A stretch of 55,859 nucleotides of DNA from an uncultured Methanomicrobiales archaeon (lineage in GTDB: Archaea; Halobacteriota; Methanomicrobia; Methanomicrobiales; Methanospirillaceae): the NCBI GenBank assembly GCA_903900025.1, contig CAIULN010000040.1, positions 1-55,859 of the forward strand, in the 5' to 3' direction. Positions 2,335 through 17,758 of the stretch are shown here, in pieces. The position numbers and the translations under genes are program-made. Within the stretch, counting starts at the first letter, position 1. Every line of letters begins with the position of its first letter. Below the pieces are notes generated by a model that worked only from the letters and a program-made list of their open reading frames with translations, had not been told where the DNA came from and made no database searches.

Positions 2335-3378
2335 ATGGTTTTGGGAATCGGCATCCTCACGGGAGGTGGCGACTGCCCGGGCCTGAACGGGCTGATCCGG
2401 GCAGTGGTGCGCAGCGGGCTGCCATACGGATACCGGACGCTGGGCATCCGGAACGGGTGGCAGGGGCTCATGAAAGGCGATGTTGAACTGCTCACTGACT
2501 CTTCGGTCTCCGGCATCATCTCCCGGGGCGGCACCATCCTGGGCACATCACGGACCGACCCGCTCAAAAACCCTGCGGATTTTACAAAGATCCAGAACAC
2601 CTTAAAAAAATTTCAGATCGGTGCGCTTGTGGTGGCGGGCGGGGACGGGACCCTTGCCGCGGCGCACCAGGTCGCCGCCCGCGGCATCCCGATCGTCGGC
2701 GTACCCAAGACCATCGACAACGACATCCCGCAGACCGATATGACCATCGGGTTTGACACTGCCGTTTCCACCGTGACCGAAGCGATTGACCGGCTCCATA
2801 CGACCGCAGAATCCCACCACCGGATCATGGTCGTCCAGGTCATGGGCCGAAAGGCCGGCTGGATCGCGCTCAAGGCAGGGATCGCCGGTGGGGCGGACGA
2901 GATCCTGATCCCCGAAGTGCATGTCACCATCGATGATGTGTGCCGGAATCTCAGGGCGCGGTACAAGGTGGGCAAACAGTTCTCCATCGTGGTCGTTGCT
3001 GAGGGGACGCCTCTTGAGGGGATCGGGGATTATCCCGTTTTTGAGGGTGAGCGGGATGAGTGCGGACACGAGAAATTTGTCGGTGCGGGAAACATCCTTG
3101 GCAGGGAACTGGAGCGGCGGCTCGGTATTGAGACGAGGGTGACGAACCTTGGCCACGTCCAGCGCGGCGGGACGCCCACGGCATTCGACCGGGTTCTCGC
3201 CACCCGGTTCGGAGTTGCGGCTGTCGAACAGATCCGGGCGGGCAACGTCAGCACGATGGTGGCATTGCAGAGCGCCCATATTGTAACAGTCCCGTTATCA
3301 TCCGTCTTCCACCGGCAAAAGCTGGTGGACCCTGAGCTCTATGCACTCGCAAGGACGGTAATGGGTGGCAAACGATAA
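2335..3378 (+). CDS. 6-phosphofructokinase (PfkA superfamily, mixed Gly/Lys phosphoryl-donor signature)
   Basis: This 347-residue PfkA-type enzyme shows GGGDCPGLN at the N-terminus (phosphate loop), GGDGTL near residues 102-107, PKTIDND near 124-130 (catalytic Asp), MGRKAGW, and a C-terminal GHVQRGGTP. In this family Gly in GGDG is typical of ATP users, while Lys in PKTIDND is typical of pyrophosphate users. The combination seen here belongs to the mixed group often called group III, so donor choice (ATP or PPi) is open. Many euryarchaeal methanogens instead use ADP-dependent PFKs of a different fold, so a PfkA enzyme here suggests transfer. The ATG follows the aldolase stop (TGAC ATGG), consistent with tight translational coupling. 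Confidence 0.88.
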   Translation: MVLGIGILTGGGDCPGLNGLIRAVVRSGLPYGYRTLGIRNGWQGLMKGDVELLTDSSVSGIISRGGTILGTSRTDPLKNPADFTKIQNTLKKFQIGALVVAGGDGTLAAAHQVAARGIPIVGVPKTIDNDIPQTDMTIGFDTAVSTVTEAIDRLHTTAESHHRIMVVQVMGRKAGWIALKAGIAGGADEILIPEVHVTIDDVCRNLRARYKVGKQFSIVVVAEGTPLEGIGDYPVFEGERDECGHEKFVGAGNILGRELERRLGIETRVTNLGHVQRGGTPTAFDRVLATRFGVAAVEQIRAGNVSTMVALQSAHIVTVPLSSVFHRQKLVDPELYALARTVMGGKR

Positions 3379-7615: not shown

Positions 7616-8731
7616 TCAGTACGAGAACGTGCCGTATTTCCCGCCGCCACCGGGATGCAGGGTGACCCTGCCGGTCCGCAGGGCTTCGATTGCGTCCCCG
7701 ACTCCCGTGTTCACGGTCCGGATCTCGTGTACCGGGGCAGTGACGAGCACCCGGATCTCGTTTTCAAACGCGGTGATGAACGAATCATACACGGCACGGC
7801 ACTTCCTTGTGTAGGGCGACGATGTCCCTTCCACGGTCTGGATGATCTGCCCGAGCGGGACGATGTGGAAGTAGGGCGGGCGGGTGCCGGGCTCACCGAC
7901 CGACAGTTCCCGTGCCCGGTCGTATACGCCTTTTTTTATGATGCCCCCGTCATGCGGGCACCGCCAGTGGTGGTGTACCGCTTCCTCGGCGGGATACTGG
8001 GTGAAGCACCGGACGCAGGCGGTGCGGTTGTATTTCCCCTCTTCCGGGAAAAAACCGGCGTTCATTTCGATCGCTCCCTTCCGGATGCAGCCGAGCACGC
8101 TTTTCACCGTACGGTCGTTGAGCCGGAGCTGGTTGAACTCCCGGGCAAACTTCTCCGGTGCCGGGCTGTGGGCGTCAGAGTTTGTGAGGAACGGGACGGC
8201 GGAGAGCTCGGGGATCGCAGCGCCATAACTGCTGTCGGCCGAGAGCCCGAGTTCCAAAAAATCGATCGGTTCGGAACCATAGCAGGCAGAAACGGAATCG
8301 AAGTATGCATACATCGCCGTCCATGGCGTAAACGCGTGGGCAGGGCCGACCAGCCCGCCGGTTTCATGGACAATCCGGGCGATGGATTCACCCGGGAGGT
8401 AGACATGCGGCCTTCCGACGGATGCAAGGCTCCTGCTGTGGGCAGCGAACCGTTCGCGGAGTTCATCGAACTGCGCAAAGTCCTGTGCAATGATGAGGTG
8501 GTGGACACGGGACTGGTCTTCCACTTCGGCGGTCGGCACAACCACGATGCCGGCACCGTTCTCCAGAAACGGGCGCCATGCCTGCTGCCATGCGGGGTGC
8601 AGTGCGTCGCCGGTCCCCAGTACTGCGATCCCTTTTTTTACGCAGGACGGGATCAGGTGCTCCGGTGTCATTTTGCGGGAGACCGCGATCGCATACGGGG
8701 AGTGAATGTGCAGGTCGGCGTTCGCGAGCAT
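7616..8731 (-). CDS. Endonuclease Q-like PHP-domain protein
   Basis: A 371-residue protein starting MLANADLHIHSPYA; the DLHIH at residues 6-10 is the first metal motif of the PHP domain. GTGDALHP and FLTNSDAHSP follow as later metal-binding blocks. A C-terminal zinc-ribbon-like portion holds CVRCF and a later CPHDG. This arrangement matches endonuclease Q (known in Thermococcales and some methanogens), which nicks DNA 5' of deaminated bases such as uracil and hypoxanthine. Catalytic competence here is inferred. The gene stands alone, with no repair partner adjacent. Confidence 0.8.
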   Translation of the reverse strand: MLANADLHIHSPYAIAVSRKMTPEHLIPSCVKKGIAVLGTGDALHPAWQQAWRPFLENGAGIVVVPTAEVEDQSRVHHLIIAQDFAQFDELRERFAAHSRSLASVGRPHVYLPGESIARIVHETGGLVGPAHAFTPWTAMYAYFDSVSACYGSEPIDFLELGLSADSSYGAAIPELSAVPFLTNSDAHSPAPEKFAREFNQLRLNDRTVKSVLGCIRKGAIEMNAGFFPEEGKYNRTACVRCFTQYPAEEAVHHHWRCPHDGGIIKKGVYDRARELSVGEPGTRPPYFHIVPLGQIIQTVEGTSSPYTRKCRAVYDSFITAFENEIRVLVTAPVHEIRTVNTGVGDAIEALRTGRVTLHPGGGGKYGTFSY

Positions 8732-8895
8732 GGGGTTCTCTGAATAGTACAGGGTTCTGGTATGTAATTAATCCGCAGTCCTGCGGGTTCCTTCCCGGTT
8801 CCATGAAAAAAAAAATTCGCAGGGGGTTTTTTCACGATCTCCGGATCTTTTTAAAAAACGTTATTTTTATTGCTTTTCCGTGCATTTCCTTTTTT

Positions 8896-9588
8896 ATGAG
8901 TAATTTTGGGATCGTTTGCCGTTGCGTTCCGGTCCTTCTCCTGCTGTTTCTTTTCCTGCCGGGAGTATCCGGATGGACGTTAAAGGACATATCAATCACT
9001 CCCGCCCAGGGGCCGGTTGCACCCCAGACACCCGTAATGGTGTCGTACTCCATTTATATGGATTCATGGATAACGGGGACGACGTTTGAAAATGACGATA
9101 CGCTGGATATGTATACTGACCTTGAAAATGCCCGCTGGATTGTCACGCTCACTGATACCGAAGAAGGCCGCCCGCCTGTGACAACGATCCTTGCCGACAA
9201 GAACGGGGCCCGGGCACGGATCGATGGCTGGACCCTGAGTTACACGAGCAAGCAGCTCACGATGAAGGTCAGGCTGCAGGGGGTTGCCCCCAACGTGAGC
9301 GGGACGGAGGATAAGATCATGTTCCGGGTCCAGGAACTGGGTCCCGATACCAAGACCATAGGAGGCACCGTAACGACAAAAAAATACCAGGTTTCTGTCC
9401 CCACCCCCATTCCCACAACCCAACTACGGACGCAGACTCTGGCACCGGCAGCGAGTCCTGCGGTCCGGAATACTCCGGCAGCGACAGCTGCTCCCACGCG
9501 AAAACAGACCTATACCCCGGGCCCGGGGCTGCCGGAAATCTGTGGCATGCTTGCAGTCGCGGCAATCATCGCAATGAAAAAGAAATAG
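8896..9588 (+). CDS. Exported protein with Pro/Thr-rich stalk and C-terminal membrane anchor
   Basis: The longer open frame starts at 8578, but the plausible start is the ATG at 8896. It gives MSNFGIVCRCVPVLLLLFLFL followed by GVSG, a clear signal peptide, and 230 residues in all. The middle is a beta-rich domain of about 140 residues of unknown family with an N-glycosylation-type site (NVSG). A low-complexity stalk rich in Pro, Thr and Ala follows. A short hydrophobic segment with MKKK at the end would anchor it in the membrane. Such stalk-plus-anchor architecture is common in surface proteins of this order. Function unknown. Confidence 0.7.
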   Translation: MSNFGIVCRCVPVLLLLFLFLPGVSGWTLKDISITPAQGPVAPQTPVMVSYSIYMDSWITGTTFENDDTLDMYTDLENARWIVTLTDTEEGRPPVTTILADKNGARARIDGWTLSYTSKQLTMKVRLQGVAPNVSGTEDKIMFRVQELGPDTKTIGGTVTTKKYQVSVPTPIPTTQLRTQTLAPAASPAVRNTPAATAAPTRKQTYTPGPGLPEICGMLAVAAIIAMKKK

Positions 9589-10160
9589 ATAGCGGCCGGG
9601 CAGGGTGTGAATAAAAAAAATTGATCGCGGTTGAAAAATTCATTGCGGCTGGGGTTGATGAGTCAGCAGATTTTTCGATTCTAAAAAAGGGAAAAATATT
9701 TTTTTTTAGGCCGGTCGTTTTTTTTTTTGTTGATGAATAGCAATGTACCGGAAAGATCCAAACTATCGTAAAAATTTTTTTTTTAAATTTTTTTTGCGGC
9801 ACATCAAAAAAATCCGGAAAAAACTTCCCGGTTGTCCGGTGATTTTTTCCTGCGAGAATGCCACGAGAAATATACGGGGGAGGCAGGAATCTTCTGATCG
9901 CCAGACCAGGTTAAAAGGGGTATTTACGGCTGTATTGCGGGTATTTTTCCAAAATAACCGTTTTAAACCCCACTTTTCAAAAGAGCCCCACAGCATGCTT
10001 CCAGCGGCTTCCGGCACCCTCCTATGGGATAAAATATGGGGCAAAAAAGAGGGCTGTTAAAAGCCCGCTAAAGAGCAACTTTTTCCTTTGATTATAACGG
10101 TTATTTTTAAAAAATAAGCGATTATTGAAGAGATAAAAGTGGCGGTGAACACATCCCTCT

Positions 10161-10317
10161 GTCGAAAACGGGTTCGACGGTAAAAAGAGGCGATCGGAGC
10201 CCGAATCGGGCTTATTTTCCAATTGTAGGAATGCCTTTCGGTGGAGATCGGTAATGCCTCCCATCTGACGCGAGTGGTGGGACGGGTCAGTGACCTGTGA
10301 CAGGTCTGCGACCCGTC
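10161..10317. ncRNA. Candidate structured RNA: three consecutive hairpins
   Basis: A GC-rich patch inside an AT-rich spacer forms three stem-loops. GTCGAA pairs with TTCGAC (10161-10178). AGCCCG pairs with CGGGCT around an AAT loop (10198-10212). A two-storey hairpin has GACGGGTC (10281-10288) pairing with GACCCGTC (10310-10317), enclosing GACCTG-TGA-CAGGTC (10292-10306). GC-rich islands in AT-rich archaeal spacers are a known sign of RNA genes. Strand and function are not determinable; a regulatory DNA role is the alternative. Confidence 0.35.
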
Positions 10318-10494
10318 ACGGGTACCGGACCCGGACAGGGATCTGGAAAGATGCCTGCGGCGTTGGATGTGCACTAATATATAGGAGGGTTATTGCGAGG
10401 GTTTTCCGGTCCTGAATACCAGTCAATTAGTCCGCTGCGTGAGCGAGTATCTACGGGGGCGATGGCGGTGGGGGAAGGGTAGATAGCAAGAGTT

Positions 10495-10745
10495 CGTACC
10501 AATCTTTTTAAAAATTTTCAATGGTTTTAAAAATTTTCATGGAATTTTTTACAGAATTTTTAAATTTTTCCGGATTTTTTTTAAAAATTTTTTGTAAAGA
10601 TTTTAATTTCTCCAAAATTTTTTTGAGAAGTTTTTAAAACTCAAAAAATTTTTTTATAAAATTTATTTTCATTCTTAATTTTTTTTGAAAAATTTTCGAA
10701 TTTTAAAATTTTTTTGTGTCTGGAATTTTTTTTTAAAAAATTTTT
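10495..10745. other. Dense phased A/T-tract block (probable curved DNA)
   Basis: About 250 bp consist largely of alternating T-runs and A-runs of four to nine bases, with repeated cores such as TTTTTAAAAATTTTC and AAAAATTTTTT at short intervals. G and C are nearly absent. Such repeated A-tracts bend DNA and melt easily. The block lies immediately upstream of the first 60-bp leader repeat and the precursor gene, so it could act on that promoter or mark an island boundary. Confidence 0.5.
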
Positions 10746-10762
10746 TTATCCTGTGTCTCCCA

Positions 10763-10822
10763 GGCTCAGTAGTTAAGCTTATAAGTAATCAGTTAAAAAT
10801 ACGAAACTATCTATTAATAATT
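10763..10822 (+). repeat. 60-bp leader repeat, copy 1 (upstream of precursor peptide)
   Basis: Matches 11185-11244 at 52 of 60 positions without gaps. It begins GGCTCAGTAGTTA, then TTATAAG (TATA-box-like) and TAATCAGTTA, and ends in a stretch equivalent to the first codons of the maturase gene. In this copy the start codon is ACG and an in-frame TAA follows after six codons, so it no longer codes. It probably carries the promoter of the precursor gene. Confidence 0.75.
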
Positions 10823-10837
10823 GACAGGAGGTAAAAA

Positions 10838-11149
10838 ATGGGGAAAATCAAAGAGGAAATCAAAATGGCAGACAAACTGTCCCGCGAGGAGTTCCGGCAA
10901 CAAATCATCTTTAAGGCAGATTTGAATAAACAGTTCAAGCAAGTATTATTAAAGGATCCGAAGCAAGCAATCGGACAATTGGGATTGAAGATTCTTCCAG
11001 ATGTGGAACTTAAAGTCGTGGAGGAATCTGCTAATGTTATCTACTTGGTATTACCCCAAAAACTGAAGGACCGTGCGGCAGGGAGTGTTGGATGCGATGG
11101 TGTAGGGGGCTGCGGATTCTGCGAGTGTAAAAGCAATATTAGATATTAA
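10838..11149 (+). CDS. RiPP precursor peptide with nitrile-hydratase-like (NHLP) leader and Cys-rich core
   Basis: A 103-residue precursor. Residues about 18-74 resemble the alpha-subunit fold of nitrile hydratase that serves as a leader in the NHLP class of ribosomal peptides: FKADLNKQF, LLKDPKQAIGQLGLKILP, then VKVVEES-type and VIYLVLPQ segments. After this comes a short Gly/Cys-rich tail (residues about 79-103, with GCDGVGGCGFCEC) holding four cysteines at 86, 92, 95 and 97. That is the probable core peptide to be modified. A strong GGAGG ribosome-binding site 7 bp upstream fixes the start at 10838. The radical SAM/SPASM maturase lies 73 bp downstream. No protease or exporter is adjacent, so export or cleavage would rely on distant genes. 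Codon use is more AT-rich than in neighbours, suggesting acquisition. Confidence 0.82.
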   Translation: MGKIKEEIKMADKLSREEFRQQIIFKADLNKQFKQVLLKDPKQAIGQLGLKILPDVELKVVEESANVIYLVLPQKLKDRAAGSVGCDGVGGCGFCECKSNIRY

Positions 11150-11184
11150 CCCTTATTTGATATCCAGCGGCGTTCCTTTCTTTT

Positions 11185-11244
11185 GGCTCAGTAGTTACCC
11201 GTATAGGTAATCAGTTAGAAATATGAAACCATCTATTTATAATT
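11185..11244 (+). repeat. 60-bp leader repeat, copy 2 (spans the maturase start codon)
   Basis: Second copy of the 10763-10822 sequence. The ATG of the radical SAM gene is at 11223-11225 inside it, so the repeat includes both a putative promoter (GTATAGG at the TATA-like position) and the first seven codons. It implies that the maturase may have its own promoter and may be nearly leaderless, since no GGAGG-type site precedes its ATG. Confidence 0.75.
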
Positions 11245-12596
11245 TTGTCTGGTCAACCGATGATCCAGAAAAGGTAATAGTCTTTAACAGTCTTACTACG
11301 GCACTGGCCGAAGTGAGGAAGACCCATATAGATTTATTGAACCTTTCTCAGTTTGATTATGTTCTCTTGCCAGAAAACAAAAGGCAGTACGTTGATGAGC
11401 TACGAAAGGGAGGATTCGTCGTTGACGACACTGCTGATGAGCTGAGAATGGTCAAATTTGCCTATAACAGTGATAAGTATGACAGCGCGATGGTCAGATT
11501 GGTTATCGCTCCCACTTTAGCGTGCAATTTTGCCTGCACCTATTGCTTCGAACAATTAGATAAAAGCCAGAGCAGGAAGGGTGGTCAAAATGTTTTCATG
11601 CCCGACGATATAAAGCAGGATTTACTGAAATATATTGAAAAGGTAGTAAAGACGAAAAAAGATGTATTTGTAACTTGGTATGGCGGGGAGCCACTCTTGG
11701 CAAAAGAAACTATTTTTGATTTATCGCAGAAGATAATTGCCATTACAGAAGAGAATAAGGTTGGATACTCTGCTGGCATAATTACTAACGGCTACCTACT
11801 TTCGAAAGATTCTGGCATCGTGCAGAAGCTTAAGAAGAACAGAATTAAGTTTATCCATATTACCCTGGACGGACCTCGCGAAGTGCATAACAGCCGCAGA
11901 ATGCTTAAAGGGAACAACGGCCCAACATTCGACCGGATTCTTGAAGGGATTAAACTTCTGAAGGCAAACAACATTGAGATATATATTCGCATAAATATTG
12001 ACCTCTCCAATTTTGATAATATAAGCAGACTCCTGGATGTATTAGAGGACAACGACCTAAAGGACATATTCGTTTACTTGGGCCAGGTTATACCTTATAC
12101 AGCGGGGTGTAAGTCGTATGAGAGCTCCTGTGTATTGACAGAAGAATTCTCGATAATAAACCAAGCTTTCTACGAAAACTTAAGACTGAGGGGATTTGAG
12201 TCAGGTAGAACGTCCTTTTATCCAAGAATTGCCCGTGCTTGCGATGCTAACCGGACGAATGCTTTTGTGCTTGATCCCGATGGGGACATGTACAAGTGCT
12301 GGACAGAAATAGGTAACAAGACTGCGAGCATCGGAAGAATTGGTGACTTGACACGACAAAACAAGGAGGAGGGAATCCTCGAGATTCAGTGGCTGACTTG
12401 GGAGCCATTCGAGTATTCTGACTGCGTAGAGTGCAAGATGCTCCCTATCTGTATGGGAGGTTGCGCCCACCAAGCCATGTTCATTAACAAGGACCGACCC
12501 GAATGCAAGGAATGGAAATACGGTCTAGAACATTACGTTCGGACTAGGTTTTCCTGTGAGAAGATTCTGAGAGCAGCCATCGATAAGTCTTGCTGA
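11223..12596 (+). CDS. Radical SAM/SPASM peptide maturase
   Basis: A 457-residue enzyme expected to modify the adjacent precursor. Residues 1-90 form a small N-terminal domain that may bind the leader. The radical SAM cluster motif CNFACTYC has cysteines at 101, 105 and 108, followed by GGEPL at 154. The C-terminal SPASM domain is complete: C340, then GDMYKC with C359, C401-x2-C404-x5-C410-x3-C414 and C428, enough for auxiliary Fe-S clusters. Enzymes of this architecture install thioether or C-C crosslinks in Cys-containing core peptides (sactipeptides, ranthipeptides and relatives). The Cys-rich core next door fits a thioether product, but the chemistry is inferred. Composition is AT-rich compared with the backbone. 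Confidence 0.9.
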   Translation: MKPSIYNFVWSTDDPEKVIVFNSLTTALAEVRKTHIDLLNLSQFDYVLLPENKRQYVDELRKGGFVVDDTADELRMVKFAYNSDKYDSAMVRLVIAPTLACNFACTYCFEQLDKSQSRKGGQNVFMPDDIKQDLLKYIEKVVKTKKDVFVTWYGGEPLLAKETIFDLSQKIIAITEENKVGYSAGIITNGYLLSKDSGIVQKLKKNRIKFIHITLDGPREVHNSRRMLKGNNGPTFDRILEGIKLLKANNIEIYIRINIDLSNFDNISRLLDVLEDNDLKDIFVYLGQVIPYTAGCKSYESSCVLTEEFSIINQAFYENLRLRGFESGRTSFYPRIARACDANRTNAFVLDPDGDMYKCWTEIGNKTASIGRIGDLTRQNKEEGILEIQWLTWEPFEYSDCVECKMLPICMGGCAHQAMFINKDRPECKEWKYGLEHYVRTRFSCEKILRAAIDKSC

Positions 12597-12846
12597 TGTG
12601 GCCGAAAAACGATTGCAAGGAAAATTGGATCAATTGATTTTACAGATTCAGCGGCTATCTTAGGTTCCTACAACACCTCTATTTAATATAATCAAATTTC
12701 AAATTAATGAAATTACTCTTATTTATTCTCCCCCTTAAGGAGTAACATTTTGCAGGATTACTGCTAACCCAAACATGAGTACGAGCAATCTCGTTAACAA
12801 TAAATAAAAACTTCGTTTTCAAAAAAAATTTCGCTTAAAAAATTTC
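12597..12846. other. AT-rich spacer after the RiPP cassette
   Basis: About 250 bp with T- and A-runs and no credible gene, separating the maturase stop from the duplicated PAC2 3' end. I see no convincing structured element. Confidence 0.5.
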
Positions 12847-13135
12847 CAGAGAAACCCTACCCGATATAACTCAATTCGTCGTTGCTCTGGATCTTCTCGC
12901 CCTCAATCAGTCCCTCGATCATGCGCTCCATCTCCGCGGCCCGGTCGTTGAGCTGGGTCGGGTCGACCGTCACGTTCAGGAGGCTGCAGATGACGGAAAG
13001 GACGCTGGTGGCGCTCCGGGGGTCGACGAGGTAGCCGCTCGTCTCGCCCATGAGGCAGACGGCATCAATGCCCCGCAGGGCGCCAAGCCCGAGGAGAAGT
13101 CCTGCTGCACCGACAATGCCGCCGCCGGGCTCGTC
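12847..13135 (-). pseudogene. Duplicated 3' end of the PAC2-family gene (289-bp direct repeat, copy 1)
   Basis: This segment is a gapless, roughly 95% identical copy of 16844-17132. On the minus strand it encodes the last ~90 residues of the PAC2 protein (DEPGGGIVGAAGLLLG through SNDELSYIG). It has no proper 5' portion: upstream it runs into R-M gene remnants at a GCTCGTC microhomology. It is therefore a non-functional fragment, and with the intact copy it brackets a ~4.0-kb island in direct orientation. Confidence 0.9.
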
Positions 13136-13441
13136 ACGCAGATGCTGGAATCCATCTCTGACCTGAAAGCCAGAAATGGATTTCGAGAAGAACTCATCAG
13201 AGTTCTTCGCTGGCTGAACAATAGCGGTCTTCTGCCCATAAGGGCGAAGACTGCTTTGAGAGGAAATCGTCCGATTTCTTCGAGGAAATTGCAGGACGCC
13301 AAGCTCGATCACGACAAGACACTGCTTCAGCGGCAGGTTGAGGCGACGGATGCGACGATTGATAAGCTGGTGTACGAGCTCTACGGGCTGACGGAGGAGG
13401 AGATTGCGATAGTGGAGGGCAGGAATAATAAACAAATTTAG
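13136..13441 (+). pseudogene. C-terminal remnant of a type II restriction-methylase-like protein, interrupted by the hairpin repeat
   Basis: The first codons read VTQML and the last ~40 residues read LLQRQVEATDATIDKLVYEL then YGLTEEEIAIVEG, the recognisable C-terminus of Eco57I/TaqI-like restriction-modification enzymes. About 140 bp of the hairpin repeat are inserted between the two parts, without breaking the frame. The rest of the gene is missing, so this is a relic. The same family leaves two other fragments in this island. Confidence 0.7.
13141..13302 (+). repeat. Multi-hairpin repeat element, copy A
   Basis: A 162-bp sequence matching 16548-16709 without gaps. It contains consecutive stem-loops: GAAAT-GG-ATTTC; GAAGAACTC-ATCA-GAGTTCTTC; GCGGTCTTCTGCCC-ATAA-GGGCGAAGACTGC; and GAGGAAATCG-TC-CGATTTCTTC with one G:T. 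Both copies sit inside remnants of R-M genes at the same codon context (after VTQML, before KLQDAK). Only the inner ~140 bp are foreign; the flanks are R-M coding sequence. It resembles a MITE- or REP-like structured repeat. Confidence 0.7.
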
Positions 13442-13470
13442 GCTTTTATAGAAATATTTGAAAATAGTAA

Positions 13471-14007
13471 TTAGAACGTCCTTGATTTCGCTATAAATAA
13501 TGCGTTGATATTTTCAACTACCATATTTAATATCCCGATAACCGGGCCTGGTGGGTAAATAGATTGATCTTCTGGATGAGATGCGATATTTCTAAGTTCA
13601 CGTAATTTATGCCACCGTAACTTTTCCCGTTCATTCAATATTTCTTTATCAAATAAAAAGTTGATTTTCTTTTCAAAATCTTCCTTTACCAATCGAGAAT
13701 TAATAAGTTTACAACGGAAAGTAATCGCTGCCTCACCAACTCTGAATAATTGCTCGCACGCAAGGGTGAATAATGGATAGAAGAAGTACCCATAGATTAA
13801 AGCACCGCGAGCTACCTCAAACAGCTTTCTTACTTCAACAGGAACATCTTCATTGAGATGAGGCTGAAGTATCATATCTAAATACATTTCACCTTTTTTG
13901 ATATCGTCATCTTGCATTTCAGGAGGTAATAGTAGGAATGATATGGAAATCCTGTCAGGCTTCAGCCAATTGTCTTTTGTTATTGGTTTGTATCCCAGAT
14001 CCTGCAT
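13471..14007 (-). CDS. HEPN-like protein (DUF4145-type), possible RNase/defence protein
   Basis: A 178-residue, AT-rich, mainly helical protein. The C-terminal half contains LRELRNIASHPED, an R-x4-H arrangement typical of HEPN domains, many of which are toxin or defence ribonucleases. EVARGALIYGYFFYPLFTLAC in the centre is a hydrophobic helix typical of the related DUF4145 group. No nucleotidyltransferase (MNT) partner is adjacent. The gene is flanked by two R-M remnants, which suggests a degraded defence region. Family assignment rests on a short motif. Confidence 0.5.
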   Translation of the reverse strand: MQDLGYKPITKDNWLKPDRISISFLLLPPEMQDDDIKKGEMYLDMILQPHLNEDVPVEVRKLFEVARGALIYGYFFYPLFTLACEQLFRVGEAAITFRCKLINSRLVKEDFEKKINFLFDKEILNEREKLRWHKLRELRNIASHPEDQSIYPPGPVIGILNMVVENINALFIAKSRTF

Positions 14008-14081
14008 AATCTATCCTATCCTATGCACTGCTATAAAGTACAAGGGTAAGTCGGTAAATTTTATAGGAGTAAATTGATCCA

Positions 14082-14165
14082 ACGGACAAACAGATCGATA
14101 TGCTGGTGTACGAGTTGTACGGGCTGACGAAGGAGGAAATTGCAATTGTGGAGGGCAGACAATAA
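14082..14165 (+). pseudogene. Short C-terminal remnant of a second R-M family protein
   Basis: A 27-codon open stretch ending in TAA reads DKQIDMLVYELYGLT then KEEIAIVEGRQ. It is the same terminal motif as the remnant ending at 13441 but from a diverged gene copy. Nothing of the upstream coding region remains. Confidence 0.65.
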
Positions 14166-14280
14166 TCTCACCCAAGGAAAAACCTCCGCCCACAGTTATT
14201 TTCACCCCACGGCAACACACTATAATAGGCCAAACATCCGGCTAAGACTAAGTAAGGCGGTGTTGTGAGGGTGGTGAACG

Positions 14281-15333
14281 ATGAGCGATAAACCAGTTCC
14301 GGAGCCGGTAACTCGTTCTCAGATCCTTTTCTACCAGTCCGAAGACGGGACAAGCCGCATTGAGGTGCGGCTCGAAGAAGGAACCGTCTGGTTATCACAG
14401 GCCCTGATCGCGGAGTTGTACCAGATTACAAAACAGACGACCGGTCACCATATCCGGAATATTTTTGACGAAAAGGAACTCTCGCCGGAGGCAACTGTAA
14501 GACAATATCTTACAGTTCAAAGCGAGGGATCAAGAACCGTCCAGCGCTCCATCGAATATTACAACCTCGACATGATCCTCGCCATCGGCTACCGCGTCCG
14601 CTCCCACCGGGGCACGCAGTTCCGCAGGTGGGCGACCGAACGGTTGAGGGAATACCTCATCAAAGGATTTGTCCTTGACGATGAGCGGTTAAAGGAAGGG
14701 CGCAGCATCGGTGCGGATTACTTCGATGAACTGCTCGAACGCATCCGGGATATCCGGGCATCCGAGAAGCGGTTCTACCAGAAGATCAGGGATATCTACA
14801 CACTCGCGATCGATTACGATCCGCTGGCAGAAACAACGCTCGGGTTTTTCAGGATCGTACAGAACAAACTGCATTGGGCAATCGCCGGCCATACTGCTGC
14901 GGAGATCATTGCAGAACGGGCTGACGCATCAAAACCGAATATGGGGCTCACTACCTGGAAAGGTGCCAAGGTGAGAAAGAGGGATGTTACCGTTGCGAAA
15001 AATTATCTTGACGAAACGGAGATCCGCCAGCTCAACCGCATCATAACCATGTATCTCGATTATGCAGAGATGCAGGCTGAACGAAAACAGCCCGTCTATA
15101 TGATCGAATGGAAAGAGAAACTGGATGCATTCCTCCAGTTCAATGAGCGGGAAATTCTTGAGGATTCAGGGAAGGTATCAATGGAAATTGCACAGCGTCT
15201 CGCATTAGAAGAATACGAAAAATTTTCAATGCGTCGGCTCGCTGAAGATACTGCTGCTTCAGATACAGAATTTGAGAATATATCAAAAAAGATTGAACAA
15301 AAGAAACGTGATCTGAAGAAAATCTGTGATTGA
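14281..15333 (+). CDS. rhuM: RhuM family protein
   Basis: A 350-residue protein of the RhuM (virulence RhuM) family. The N-terminal DNA-binding-like part carries VWLSQALIAELYQITKQTTG and a conserved RTVQRSIEYYNLDMILAIGY. RSHRGTQFRRWATERLREYL is the family signature, followed by a long helical C-terminus. Biochemical function is unknown; homologues are frequent on genomic islands and near restriction or toxin genes, which fits this context. Start: ATG at 14281 preceded by GAGGGTGG. Full length for the family. Confidence 0.85.
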   Translation: MSDKPVPEPVTRSQILFYQSEDGTSRIEVRLEEGTVWLSQALIAELYQITKQTTGHHIRNIFDEKELSPEATVRQYLTVQSEGSRTVQRSIEYYNLDMILAIGYRVRSHRGTQFRRWATERLREYLIKGFVLDDERLKEGRSIGADYFDELLERIRDIRASEKRFYQKIRDIYTLAIDYDPLAETTLGFFRIVQNKLHWAIAGHTAAEIIAERADASKPNMGLTTWKGAKVRKRDVTVAKNYLDETEIRQLNRIITMYLDYAEMQAERKQPVYMIEWKEKLDAFLQFNEREILEDSGKVSMEIAQRLALEEYEKFSMRRLAEDTAASDTEFENISKKIEQKKRDLKKICD

Positions 15334-15441
15334 TCTGAACATGTCTGCACTTGTGATGCAAGCAGGAACTATGTGTCCTCTCCGCGATTAGCATTGTACA
15401 GAATACCGGCAGAAGAATAATCAACGGGCAAGGTATGGGAA

Positions 15442-15789
15442 ATGAAATCAGATCTTGTCAAACGCCTCCACAAAAATTTTGAGGATTATGTCCATAAACA
15501 GGACCACGTAGAGTTCTGGTTCGCCCGTGATCTGCAGGTCCTGCTCGGCTATGCCGAATGTCGTAACTTCCTGAAGGTTATCGAAAACGCAAAGGAATCG
15601 TGTAAAATTTCAAACCACGCAATTTCAGACCATTTTGTTGATGCCGACAAAATGGTATCCCTCGGTTCCGGATCAGAGCGGGAGATAGAAGATATCCTTC
15701 TGACCCGGTATGCCTGTTACCTGATCGCCCAGAACGGTGATCCCCGCAAGGAAGAGATCGCGTTTGTGGAATCTGGGAGTGGGAAATGA
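15442..15789 (+). CDS. dinD: Truncated DinD-like protein (DNA damage-inducible protein D, N-terminal part)
   Basis: A 115-residue ORF with the conserved DinD opening: HVEFWFARDLQVLLGYAECR, the KAKESC-like segment and TRYACYLIAQNGDPRKEEIA. DinD proteins are usually about 270-280 residues, so more than half is missing. The frame ends abruptly in ESGSGK and overlaps the next ATG by 4 bp (ATGA). This looks like a 3' truncation by recombination that placed a PIN gene directly behind. In bacteria DinD inhibits RecA; whether this fragment does anything is unknown. Confidence 0.75.
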   Translation: MKSDLVKRLHKNFEDYVHKQDHVEFWFARDLQVLLGYAECRNFLKVIENAKESCKISNHAISDHFVDADKMVSLGSGSEREIEDILLTRYACYLIAQNGDPRKEEIAFVESGSGK

Positions 15790-16223
15790 AAATCTACATG
15801 GATGTCTGCTGCCTGTGCAGGCCATTCGATGATCAGACGAAGGGACGAATCCGTTTGGAGGTGACTGCAGTTCAGGAGATCTTCCGTCGCTGCGCGACGC
15901 AGGAATTCACCATGATTACCAGCGAAGCGATAACCGAAGAACTCTCAAAAATCCCGGACATAAAGAAACGGCTTCGGGTGGAGAAGATCGTATCAGTGGC
16001 AAAAGAACACATACTCATTGACGAAGGAATAATCTCGCGGATGCACGAGTTAATTGCGATGGACGGAGATGCGATGGACTCGCTCCACATTGCCTGTGCC
16101 GAACGAGCCGGCGCGGTGTTCCTCACTACTGATGATGATCTGATAACATTTTTTAAGTTGCACCAGACCATACAGGTACATATAGAAAACCCGGTCACCT
16201 GGTTAAAGGAGGAAAACAGATGA
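15786..16223 (+). CDS. PIN-domain protein (putative toxin ribonuclease)
   Basis: A 145-residue PIN domain starting MKIYMDVCCLCRPFDD, with the first catalytic Asp near residue 6. EITEEL-type acidic helices follow, then DGDAMDSLHIACAERAGA and FLTTDDDLI with the remaining metal-binding acids. PIN proteins act as Mg-dependent ribonucleases, often as toxins of type II toxin-antitoxin pairs. The gene overlaps its downstream partner by 4 bp (ATGA at 16220), so the two are translated together and the partner is the likely antitoxin. Confidence 0.8.
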   Translation: MKIYMDVCCLCRPFDDQTKGRIRLEVTAVQEIFRRCATQEFTMITSEAITEELSKIPDIKKRLRVEKIVSVAKEHILIDEGIISRMHELIAMDGDAMDSLHIACAERAGAVFLTTDDDLITFFKLHQTIQVHIENPVTWLKEENR

Positions 16224-16429
16224 GCGTCAAAACATTACACCAGATCCAGCAGGAGGGACTTGACGTACTGGTTGAAAAACTTGGCCCGGATGATGCGATC
16301 CGGTTCCTCCAGATCTATGAACCGGGAAGCGGCGACTGGACAAAAGACCGGAAAAAATACCTGGAGAAAGACCCGGATAAAATTATCAAACGTATCATGG
16401 AACGAAGAAAAAAATTACCCGTTCCATGA
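16220..16429 (+). CDS. Small partner of the PIN protein (putative antitoxin)
   Basis: A 69-residue, charged, helical protein (VKTLHQIQQEGLDVLVEKLG, GDWTKDRKKYL, ending KKLPVP). It is coupled to the PIN gene by an ATGA overlap. Size, charge and coupling fit an antitoxin; no named DNA-binding motif is recognisable. Confidence 0.6.
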   Translation: MSVKTLHQIQQEGLDVLVEKLGPDDAIRFLQIYEPGSGDWTKDRKKYLEKDPDKIIKRIMERRKKLPVP

Positions 16430-16473
16430 ACTCAATCTCCATTTTTTCCACAACAATTACTTCTCCATCTGCG

Positions 16474-16740
16474 CCCATCCACACCATCAACTTCTCCTTT
16501 CCTGAGGACAAAGCCCGCCACGATCGTATGGGTGCGCTCGTCACACAGATGCTGCAATCCATATCTACCCTGATGGCGAGAAATGGATTTCGAAAAGAAC
16601 TCATCAGAGTTCTTCGATTACTGAACAATAGCGGTCTTCTGCCCATACGGGCGAAGACTGCTTTGAGAAGAAATCGTCCGATTTCTTCGGGGAAATTGCA
16701 GGACGCCAAAAGAAGAGCATGTGCATTCCCGTTCTGTTCT
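16474..16740 (+). pseudogene. R-M protein C-terminal remnant interrupted by the hairpin repeat (second site)
   Basis: The frame starting near 16426 reads INFSFPEDKARHDRMGALVT then QML, the segment preceding the C-terminus in Eco57I-type enzymes. It then enters the hairpin repeat (copy B) and leaves it at KLQDAK, after which homology is lost. Only about 25 family residues survive, so it is a relic. Together with 13136-13441 it shows the same repeat sitting at the same codon position of two gene copies. Confidence 0.6.
16548..16709 (+). repeat. Multi-hairpin repeat element, copy B
   Basis: Second copy of the 162-bp element at 13141-13302. Stems are retained: AAGAACTC-ATCA-GAGTTCTT, GCGGTCTTCTGCCC-ATAC-GGGCGAAGACTGC, and a perfect 10-bp GAAGAAATCG-TC-CGATTTCTTC. 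At the one stem base that differs in the last hairpin, copy A has a G:T wobble where copy B has A:T, so pairing is preserved. Confidence 0.7.
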
Positions 16741-16843
16741 TTCTCACACTGCTCCCGCAACACTATCTCGCTGGGCTGGAAACGGCATAGCAGCCTAAAA
16801 AATAGACAAGTTATCAGGTATGAAATTTGAAACAGGTATCTAT

Positions 16844-17132
16844 CAGAGAAACCCTACCCGATATAACTCAATTCGTCGTTGCTCTGGATCTTCTCGCCCT
16901 CAATCAGCCCCTCGATCATCCGCTCCATCTCCGCGGCCCGGTCGTTGAGCTGGGTCGGGTCGACCGTCACGTTCAGGAGGCTGCAGAGGACGGAAAGGAC
17001 GCTGGTGGCGCTCCGGGGGTCGACGAGGTAGCCGCTCGTTTCGCCCATGAGGCAGACGGCATCGATGTTCCGCAGGGCGCCAAGCCCGAGCAGGAGCCCT
17101 GCCGCGCCGACAATGCCGCCGCCGGGCTCGTC
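16844..17132 (-). repeat. 289-bp direct repeat, copy 2 (within the intact PAC2 gene)
   Basis: The counterpart of 12847-13135, lying within the 3' end of the intact PAC2-family gene and about 10 bp beyond its stop. Same orientation, offset exactly 3997 bp, no indels. Confidence 0.9.
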
Positions 17133-17612
17133 CCGCTGGAAGACAACCCCTGCCGCCTCGAGCTCTTCGCGCAGTTCCGGCCGGTTGAGTGCCCCGAGCA
17201 CCCGCGGTTCGTCGACAAAGTGCCCGACACCGAAACCGCCAAGCGTGTAGATCCGCTGGATGCCGAGCTCTGCGGCGATCTCGAGGTACTGGTCGGTGAG
17301 GATGTAGTGCCCTTCGTTGGAGGTGCTCTGGTAGTCGCCGACCAAAAAGACAACGTCCTGGTTCTCGGCATGGTACAGGTACAGTTCATTCCGTACCAGC
17401 CGGACAACCCCGTTCTCCTCGATGATGACATGGGGCGGGAAGTAGATGGAGTGGATCTCGGCAATCTTCTCGGCGCACAGCATGTGGATCATGTATTCCG
17501 CGACGAGCTTTCCCACCTGACCGATGCCCGGCAGCCCCTCGACCATCACAGGACTGAGAAGCTTCCGCTCCTTAAAACTGTCAAAAAACCGGACGCTGAT
17601 GTCCTCGATCAC
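16854..17612 (-). CDS. PAC2-family proteasome-assembly-chaperone-like protein
   Basis: A 252-residue PAC2-fold protein: VMVEGLPGIGQVGKLVAEY near the N-terminus, then IYTLGGFGVGHFVDEPRVLG and GGGIVGAAGLLLGLG. Archaeal PAC2 proteins are ATP-grasp-associated or proteasome-assembly-like; exact function is unsettled. The open frame extends upstream to 17702, but the GTG at 17612 overlaps the Nop10 stop as GTGA, the usual coupled start in this operon, and gives a family-length protein. It is the last gene of the aIF2-alpha/Nop10/PAC2 operon. Its 3' end has been duplicated at 12847-13135. Confidence 0.85.
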   Translation of the reverse strand: MIEDISVRFFDSFKERKLLSPVMVEGLPGIGQVGKLVAEYMIHMLCAEKIAEIHSIYFPPHVIIEENGVVRLVRNELYLYHAENQDVVFLVGDYQSTSNEGHYILTDQYLEIAAELGIQRIYTLGGFGVGHFVDEPRVLGALNRPELREELEAAGVVFQRDEPGGGIVGAAGLLLGLGALRNIDAVCLMGETSGYLVDPRSATSVLSVLCSLLNVTVDPTQLNDRAAEMERMIEGLIEGEKIQSNDELSYIG

Positions 17613-17758
17613 CGCACCATCCTCCGGTACTTCCCGTACTTGTCTTCCGGTGAGAAACGAGCGGGGTGCGCTGTCACGGTCGGTGCACCGCAGGCAGGGC
17701 ACGTCACCGAGAGCGTATACGTCCGGTCAACAGGACATCGCCGTATCCGCCCGGTCAT
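17609..17758 (-). CDS. nop10: Ribosome biogenesis protein Nop10
   Basis: A 49-residue zinc protein, easily missed because of its size: MTGRIRRCPVDRTYTLSVTC then PACGAPTVTAHPARFSPEDK, ending KYRRMVR. The C-x8-type spacing between CPVDRTYTL and CPACG and the YGKYRR tail are diagnostic. It is a core subunit of H/ACA ribonucleoproteins that guide pseudouridylation of rRNA. It overlaps the aIF2-alpha stop by 4 bp and the PAC2 start by 4 bp. Confidence 0.93.
   Translation of the reverse strand: MTGRIRRCPVDRTYTLSVTCPACGAPTVTAHPARFSPEDKYGKYRRMVR

Follow-up and report, generated by a model that had tools for sequence, protein, structure and literature searches.

The window, 55,859 nucleotides of contig CAIULN010000040.1 from an uncultured archaeon of the Methanospirillaceae, carries two adjacent genes, an NHLP-leader RiPP precursor followed by a radical SAM/SPASM maturase (Table 1). 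By sequence, this cassette comprises a truncated NHLP leader and then an invariant Cys-rich core, beside an intact Clo7bot-like SPASM maturase. The precursor ORF runs from an ATG at 10838 to a stop codon at 11149 and is preceded by a GGAGGT ribosome-binding site. An earlier sequence-only reading of this DNA had described a 103-residue precursor with cysteines at positions 86, 92, 95 and 97, and the ORF bore this out exactly. Position 10763 is the first base of a direct repeat and no gene starts there. The precursor and maturase genes are separated by 73 bp in the window, compared to 4, 22 or 35 bp, or an overlap, in four Methanosarcina copies. The host is a methanogen, as mcrA is present in its genome, split across two contig ends.

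Table 1. Features of the cassette and of the insert that holds it
Feature	Position	Strand	Description
Lineage-specific low-GC insert holding the cassette	8772..16852		Synteny with four congeners breaks and resumes there
Direct repeat, copy 1	10763..10822	+	60 nt, upstream of precursor, 87% identical to copy 2
NHLP-leader RiPP precursor	10838..11149	+	103 aa; TIGR03793 and PF02979 over cut-off
NHLP leader homology	10883..11068	+	TIGR03793 profile positions 2-63 of 77 only
Conserved leader strand KVVEESANVIYLVLPQKLK, residues 59-77	11012..11068	+	Proposed maturase recognition element
Core GCDGVGGCGFCEC, residues 85-97 (C86, C92, C95, C97)	11090..11128	+	CX3E at C92-E96
Direct repeat, copy 2	11185..11244	+	60 nt, contains maturase start codon
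Radical SAM/SPASM maturase, Clo7bot-maturase-like	11223..12596	+	457 aa, no internal stop
CX3CX2C radical SAM cluster motif (C101, C105, C108)	11523..11546	+	Sequence, alignment
SPASM-region cysteines C340-C428	12240..12506	+	Alignment

Leader and core of the precursor

In profile searches the precursor matched TIGR03793 (NHLP leader) with 66.6 bits (E = 1.3e-18; cut-off 50.9) and Pfam NHase_alpha (PF02979) with 28.8, just above the cut-off of 27.2. These scores upheld the nitrile-hydratase-alpha-like leader proposed in the sequence-only reading, with the last 14 positions of the TIGR03793 profile, i.e. the recognition/cleavage segment ELTDEQLxxVAGG, missing from the window precursor. The corresponding match in the bacterial orthologue L034 spans positions 1-77. 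Judged by its profile match, the window leader is a truncated NHLP leader. It has AGS where GG is expected and is devoid of LXXXXL; most archaeal relatives keep the GG ahead of the first Cys, but not LXXXXL. The LXXXXL-Gly-Gly segment was found in none of the archaeal precursors, whereas 14 of the 16 bacterial ones contain LXXXXL, the exceptions (L029 and L036) both lying beside sister maturases. The predicted model of the window precursor resembles both solved proteusin precursors, 8tb1 and 9cjx, although the model is poor (pLDDT 57.1). No further copy of the precursor was found elsewhere in the window's genome.

Alignment of 21 precursors identified V60, L70, V71 and P73 as the only invariant columns, all of which fall within the leader strand. 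Little of the helical leader remains in three Methanosarcina precursors (L025 in G304, L019 in G334 and L044 in G512), which still keep the strand KVxEESADxxxLxLPQKL as well as the core. From the invariant columns and the survival of the strand in these short forms, we infer that the strand is probably the part gripped by the maturase.

All 13 residues of the core GCDGVGGCGFCEC are invariant in the eight archaeal copies, compared to 25 of 70 leader columns (Fisher p = 1e-5, a value that overstates independence because the copies are related). The core codons of these copies differ synonymously only, and a variable C-terminal follower comes after the core. Such strong purifying selection on the product makes it more likely to act on a fixed target, cellular or signalling, than to serve as a diversifying bacteriocin. 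At least one Cys follows the leader in all 21 precursors, the sole leader Cys being in the N-terminal extension of L031. Bacterial cores are alike inside small clades (e.g. GGSCKDFCVHDIF in L032 and L034) and different between clades.

Residues C92-G-F-C-E96 form a CX3E motif, and CX3D/CX3E is the motif of the PapB ranthipeptide (PMC9413430). A CX3D motif (C-V/M/I-G-C-D) is additionally present in six of the eight archaeal copies. The first Cys of this second motif, present in most Methanosarcina copies, is replaced by Ser in the window and in L044, such that the second link would be absent from both. CX3D/E occurs in only one of the 16 bacterial orthologue precursors, in which Cys spacings vary, and one precursor contains only one Cys. 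A PapB-type linkage therefore cannot be the rule of the family, and the chemistry rule for this maturase subfamily must be wider than PapB chemistry.

The spacing of the last three core cysteines, C92-X2-C95-X-C97, is that of CTLCSC, the CxxCxC active site of nitrile hydratase (PMC3323583), and it is found in the archaeal cores but is absent from all 16 bacterial cores. It is nevertheless highly improbable that the product is a metallopeptide in which these residues would form a metal site like the NHase-alpha claw, with the radical SAM enzyme altering its ligands. The position is not homologous: the claw segment of NHase-alpha (residues 118-140 of 1v29) lies between two leader-like matches, whereas the window motif comes after the leader. 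Moreover, a Gly/Cys-rich tail can yield CxxCxC spacing without common origin.

The maturase and its likely chemistry

The sequence-only reading had called the second gene a complete radical SAM/SPASM enzyme. Its 457-codon frame is uninterrupted, the protein scored over the cut-off for PF04055, and the CX3CX2C motif and seven SPASM-region cysteines (C340, C359, C401, C404, C410, C414 and C428) are invariant in 18 orthologues, all in agreement with that assignment. When subfamilies were searched, the best curated model was TIGR04334 (Clo7bot peptide maturase), with 442 bits against a cut-off of 600. Lesser NCBIfam matches were TIGR04463 vs_C_rich, CefB, FlmE/OhkG, geopeptide and PapB, so that the nearest families are mostly named for Cys-rich substrates. 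No NCBIfam cut-off was exceeded, and the maturase belongs to no named equivalog; in terms of profile scores it is a new subfamily, closest to the Clo7bot maturases. Purifying selection on the maturase is indicated by dN/dS values of 0.14-0.19 between the window and four Methanosarcina copies.

CteB (5wgg/5why) was the closest solved structure by both sequence profile and fold, the fold match to 5why (E = 1.4e-13) having been obtained with a low-confidence AlphaFold model (mean pLDDT 57.6). At the N-terminus, strands were predicted at residues 7-11, 17-22 and 27-32, followed by helices at 33-40 and 51-62, with a local pLDDT of ~50; there was no RRE or PqqD Pfam match in the maturase. Because the model is poor, the comparisons with an RRE and with CteB are weak. 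As the closest families have Cys-rich peptides as substrates and the closest fold is that of CteB, a thioether-forming enzyme, analogy suggests a thioether product.

SPASM enzymes of similar fold also catalyse sactionine (C-alpha thioether), C-C cyclophane and epimerisation reactions. That the cassette makes a radical SAM RiPP carrying one of these modifications, or another SPASM product, in place of a ranthipeptide link is a real possibility, albeit a doubtful one, and the varied Cys spacings of bacterial orthologues lacking CX3D/E are consistent with it. However, the nearest relatives (Clo7bot, vs_C_rich, CefB, geopeptide, PapB and CteB) belong to Cys-rich substrates, and the archaeal core contains a single aromatic residue.

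Distribution, insertion and export

Of the 31 Methanosarcina genomes examined, 7 have an orthologue of the maturase (78-83% identity); more distant orthologues (58-66% identity) occur at 13 loci in Bacillota of the Desulfotomaculum/Peptococcaceae group. Each of the eight archaeal maturase genes is directly preceded by the precursor, and an NHLP precursor occupies this position in nearly all bacterial copies, none having been detected beside the maturase of L037. Homologues of the maturase thus do pair with an NHLP precursor in both archaea and bacteria. The recurrence of the same upstream precursor in every archaeal copy, together with purifying selection on the maturase, indicates that the pairing is not a chance event. 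There was no conserved third gene, and the neighbours vary between loci. Two Methanosarcina maturase genes are altered: that of L042 (G511) contains a single in-frame TAG, at a site occupied by Gln or Arg in relatives, which could be pyrrolysine or a mutation, and that of L012/L019 (G334) is in two frames, split at about residue 275, with its precursor intact.

Within the window's order, the Methanomicrobiales, TIGR03793 was over the cut-off in only 1 of 199 genomes, by which the cassette was rejected as a trait of the order; in a sample of the phylum the count was 4 of 393 genomes. The cassette proved instead to be an insert shared with Methanosarcina. In the maturase tree all archaeal copies grouped together (99/99). 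Within this group the window copy was sister to those of Methanosarcina, and the Bacillota formed the adjacent clade; as the split between archaeal and bacterial copies depends on a distant root, the older transfer may have gone in either direction.

The insert (~8 kb) has a GC content of mostly 0.38-0.51, compared to about 0.56. It is flanked on the left by a gene without a Pfam match (7616-8731), which we take to be PHP-type, and on the right by PAC2 (16854-17702). In four congeners the distance between the flanking genes ranges from 5 bp to 5.6 kb, the interval containing either no genes or different ones, and some congeners carry different inserts at the same spot. The cassette is therefore a lineage-specific insertion at a variable spot. 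The absence of the insert from these four congeners and the sister relationship of the maturase to the Methanosarcina enzymes lead us to conclude that the pair was acquired horizontally, from the Methanosarcina lineage or from a common donor. An assembly chimera is unlikely, as both flanks are syntenic genes of the genus on one contig and some congeners carry different inserts there. As to the vehicle, no viral contig relative was found, and plasmid matches were at only ~40% identity or less.

Several other features were observed in or near the insert. An extreme A/T-tract block with overlapping inverted repeats (10500-10760) is immediately 5' of the cassette. A 293-nt direct repeat (12847-13139 and 16844-17136; 96% identical) reflects a partial duplication of the PAC2 gene end, the truncated copy lying next to the cassette. 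Positions 14281-16429 hold a RhuM-family gene, a Bro-N fragment and a PIN-domain gene with a small partner ORF; together these look mobile or toxin-antitoxin-like. Repeats at 13338-13422 and 14074-14158 (80% identical) encode ELYGLTxEEIAIVEG and look like remnant ends of a methylase-type gene.

Gene fragments such as the partial PAC2 copy and the Bro-N fragment, together with the broken maturase of G334 and the TAG-interrupted one of G511, are what might be expected if the cassette were a decaying, non-functional insert in the window's genome. This is very unlikely, since both window ORFs are intact, the maturase dN/dS is low and core changes are synonymous only.

The statement in the sequence-only reading that no NHLP peptidase/exporter lies nearby was correct and can be extended. 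No TIGR03796 gene was found near the cassette, and none was over the cut-off in the window's genome (G000, ~90% complete), where the best among the matches listed were to the ATPase domain, or in the seven Methanosarcina genomes. An unrelated exporter may be encoded elsewhere in the ~90% complete genome. In bacteria, a peptidase and some of the modifying enzymes recognise the LXXXXL/Gly-Gly segment (PMC10858898). Joint loss of the exporter and of this segment is therefore coherent, a connection missed in the sequence-only reading, which had overlooked the absent leader end.

TIGR03796/TIGR03797-type transporter genes adjoin the pair in the bacterial loci L032, L034 and L039, and the archaeal genomes contain ABC ATPases and type-I-like ABC proteins. 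These observations would fit an ordinary bacterial-type NHLP/proteusin RiPP, i.e. a bacteriocin exported from archaea by a general ABC exporter with the help of a general protease. We consider this unlikely, given that none of the eight archaeal genomes has an NHLP peptidase-exporter over the cut-off, that archaeal precursors lack the segment that such peptidases read, and that the core has not diversified.

Proposed mechanism and relation to known systems

The explanation that we regard as probable on balance is a horizontally acquired two-gene radical SAM RiPP cassette, in which the maturase grips the leader strand, installs one or more thioethers in the core and leaves release to a host protease. 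The N-terminal domain of the maturase, predicted to be beta-beta-beta-alpha-alpha and RRE-like, would pair with the leader strand KVxEESAxxxxLVLPQKL, while a core Cys would be bound by the SPASM auxiliary clusters. A 5'-deoxyadenosyl radical would then take a hydrogen from the acceptor residue, and attack by the Cys sulfur would form a thioether, each such link lowering the mass by 2 Da. C92-E96 (CX3E) is the strongest candidate pair; the CX3D pair would provide an extra link in six of the eight archaeal copies, the window not being among them. As the exporter/peptidase and the motif that the peptidase reads are both absent, release of the product would need an unrelated host protease. More tentatively, the archaeal branch might represent a non-exported RiPP in which the maturase reads the structured, NHase-like half of the leader, this half replacing the usual LXXXXL helix, and the product might have a fixed intracellular role in methanogens, as a cofactor, a metal/redox peptide or a signal.

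The cassette shares with the NHLP/proteusin family (TIGR03793; Haft 2010, PMC2887384) an NHase-like leader, a short Cys-rich tail and an adjacent modifying enzyme. It differs in its archaeal host, in having neither the LXXXXL/Gly-Gly end nor an NHLP transporter, in combining an invariant core with a variable follower, and in the near loss of the helical leader in three Methanosarcina genomes. Precursors of the NHLP or Nif11 type whose sole maturase is a radical SAM enzyme were reported generally for bacteria in 2011 (PMC3023750), and these TIGR04064 systems follow the same gene logic, whereas the window maturase is Clo7bot-like and the archaeal branch is exporter-less. The pairing itself is thus already known from bacteria, and what is new is the exporter-less archaeal variant. 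The open-access literature (subscription papers being outside its scope) held no description of NHLP precursors in methanogens, and no papers on Clo7bot, TIGR04334, TIGR04463 or geopeptide were found there.

Clo7bot (TIGR04334, CtpM) is the closest curated maturase family, with an alignment over the full length and 40% identity between the window maturase and a Paraclostridium plasmid copy. The window enzyme nonetheless scores below the family cut-off, and its precursor is of the NHLP type, whereas the Clo7bot precursors of that plasmid are 41-53 aa long, occur in many tandem copies and have a MKFIKKPxRKFEEG-like start without an NHLP leader. Ranthipeptide systems (PapB, CteB/SCIFF) are similar in that the SPASM fold is nearest CteB and that CX3E, with CX3D in most archaeal copies, recalls PapA. 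However, the window leader is unrelated, the core is much shorter, the crosslinks are predicted and the bacterial relatives are mostly without CX3D/E. Ranthipeptide and sactipeptide clusters, and archaeal radical SAM RiPPs in number, have been predicted in archaea; the validated archaeal RiPPs covered in PMC12144867 are haloarchaeal lanthipeptides.

Other RiPP loci were observed in the same groups of organisms. Methanosarcina G501 (L064) has a second, different NHLP pair, in which a precursor (8550-8894; 65.7 bits) is followed by a TIGR04064/PapB-like radical SAM/SPASM protein (9218-10699). In G001, a member of the window's order and thus a relative of the host, L015 encodes a Nif11-like precursor (3138-3374) with a bacterial-type leader containing LXXXXL and Gly-Gly; it ends in LSDEELKAVTGGSVPDCITVCHNYW and lies beside a different SPASM-type enzyme. 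L003/L007 (G077) is another type of RiPP locus in the window's family, where a radical SAM-type gene lies on either side of two tandem NHLP-like precursors of 85-92 aa.

It has been asked which half of the leader is read by proteusin-modifying enzymes, the structured one or the one with LXXXXL (PMC10858898). The archaeal precursors bear on this question, as LXXXXL is wholly absent from them and three are without most of the helices; the short Methanosarcina leaders amount to a natural deletion series that points to the short conserved strand. With just two genes and a fixed core, the cassette is a very small yet complete system, and because it also occurs in Methanosarcina, for which genetic tools are established, its product could be directly identifiable.
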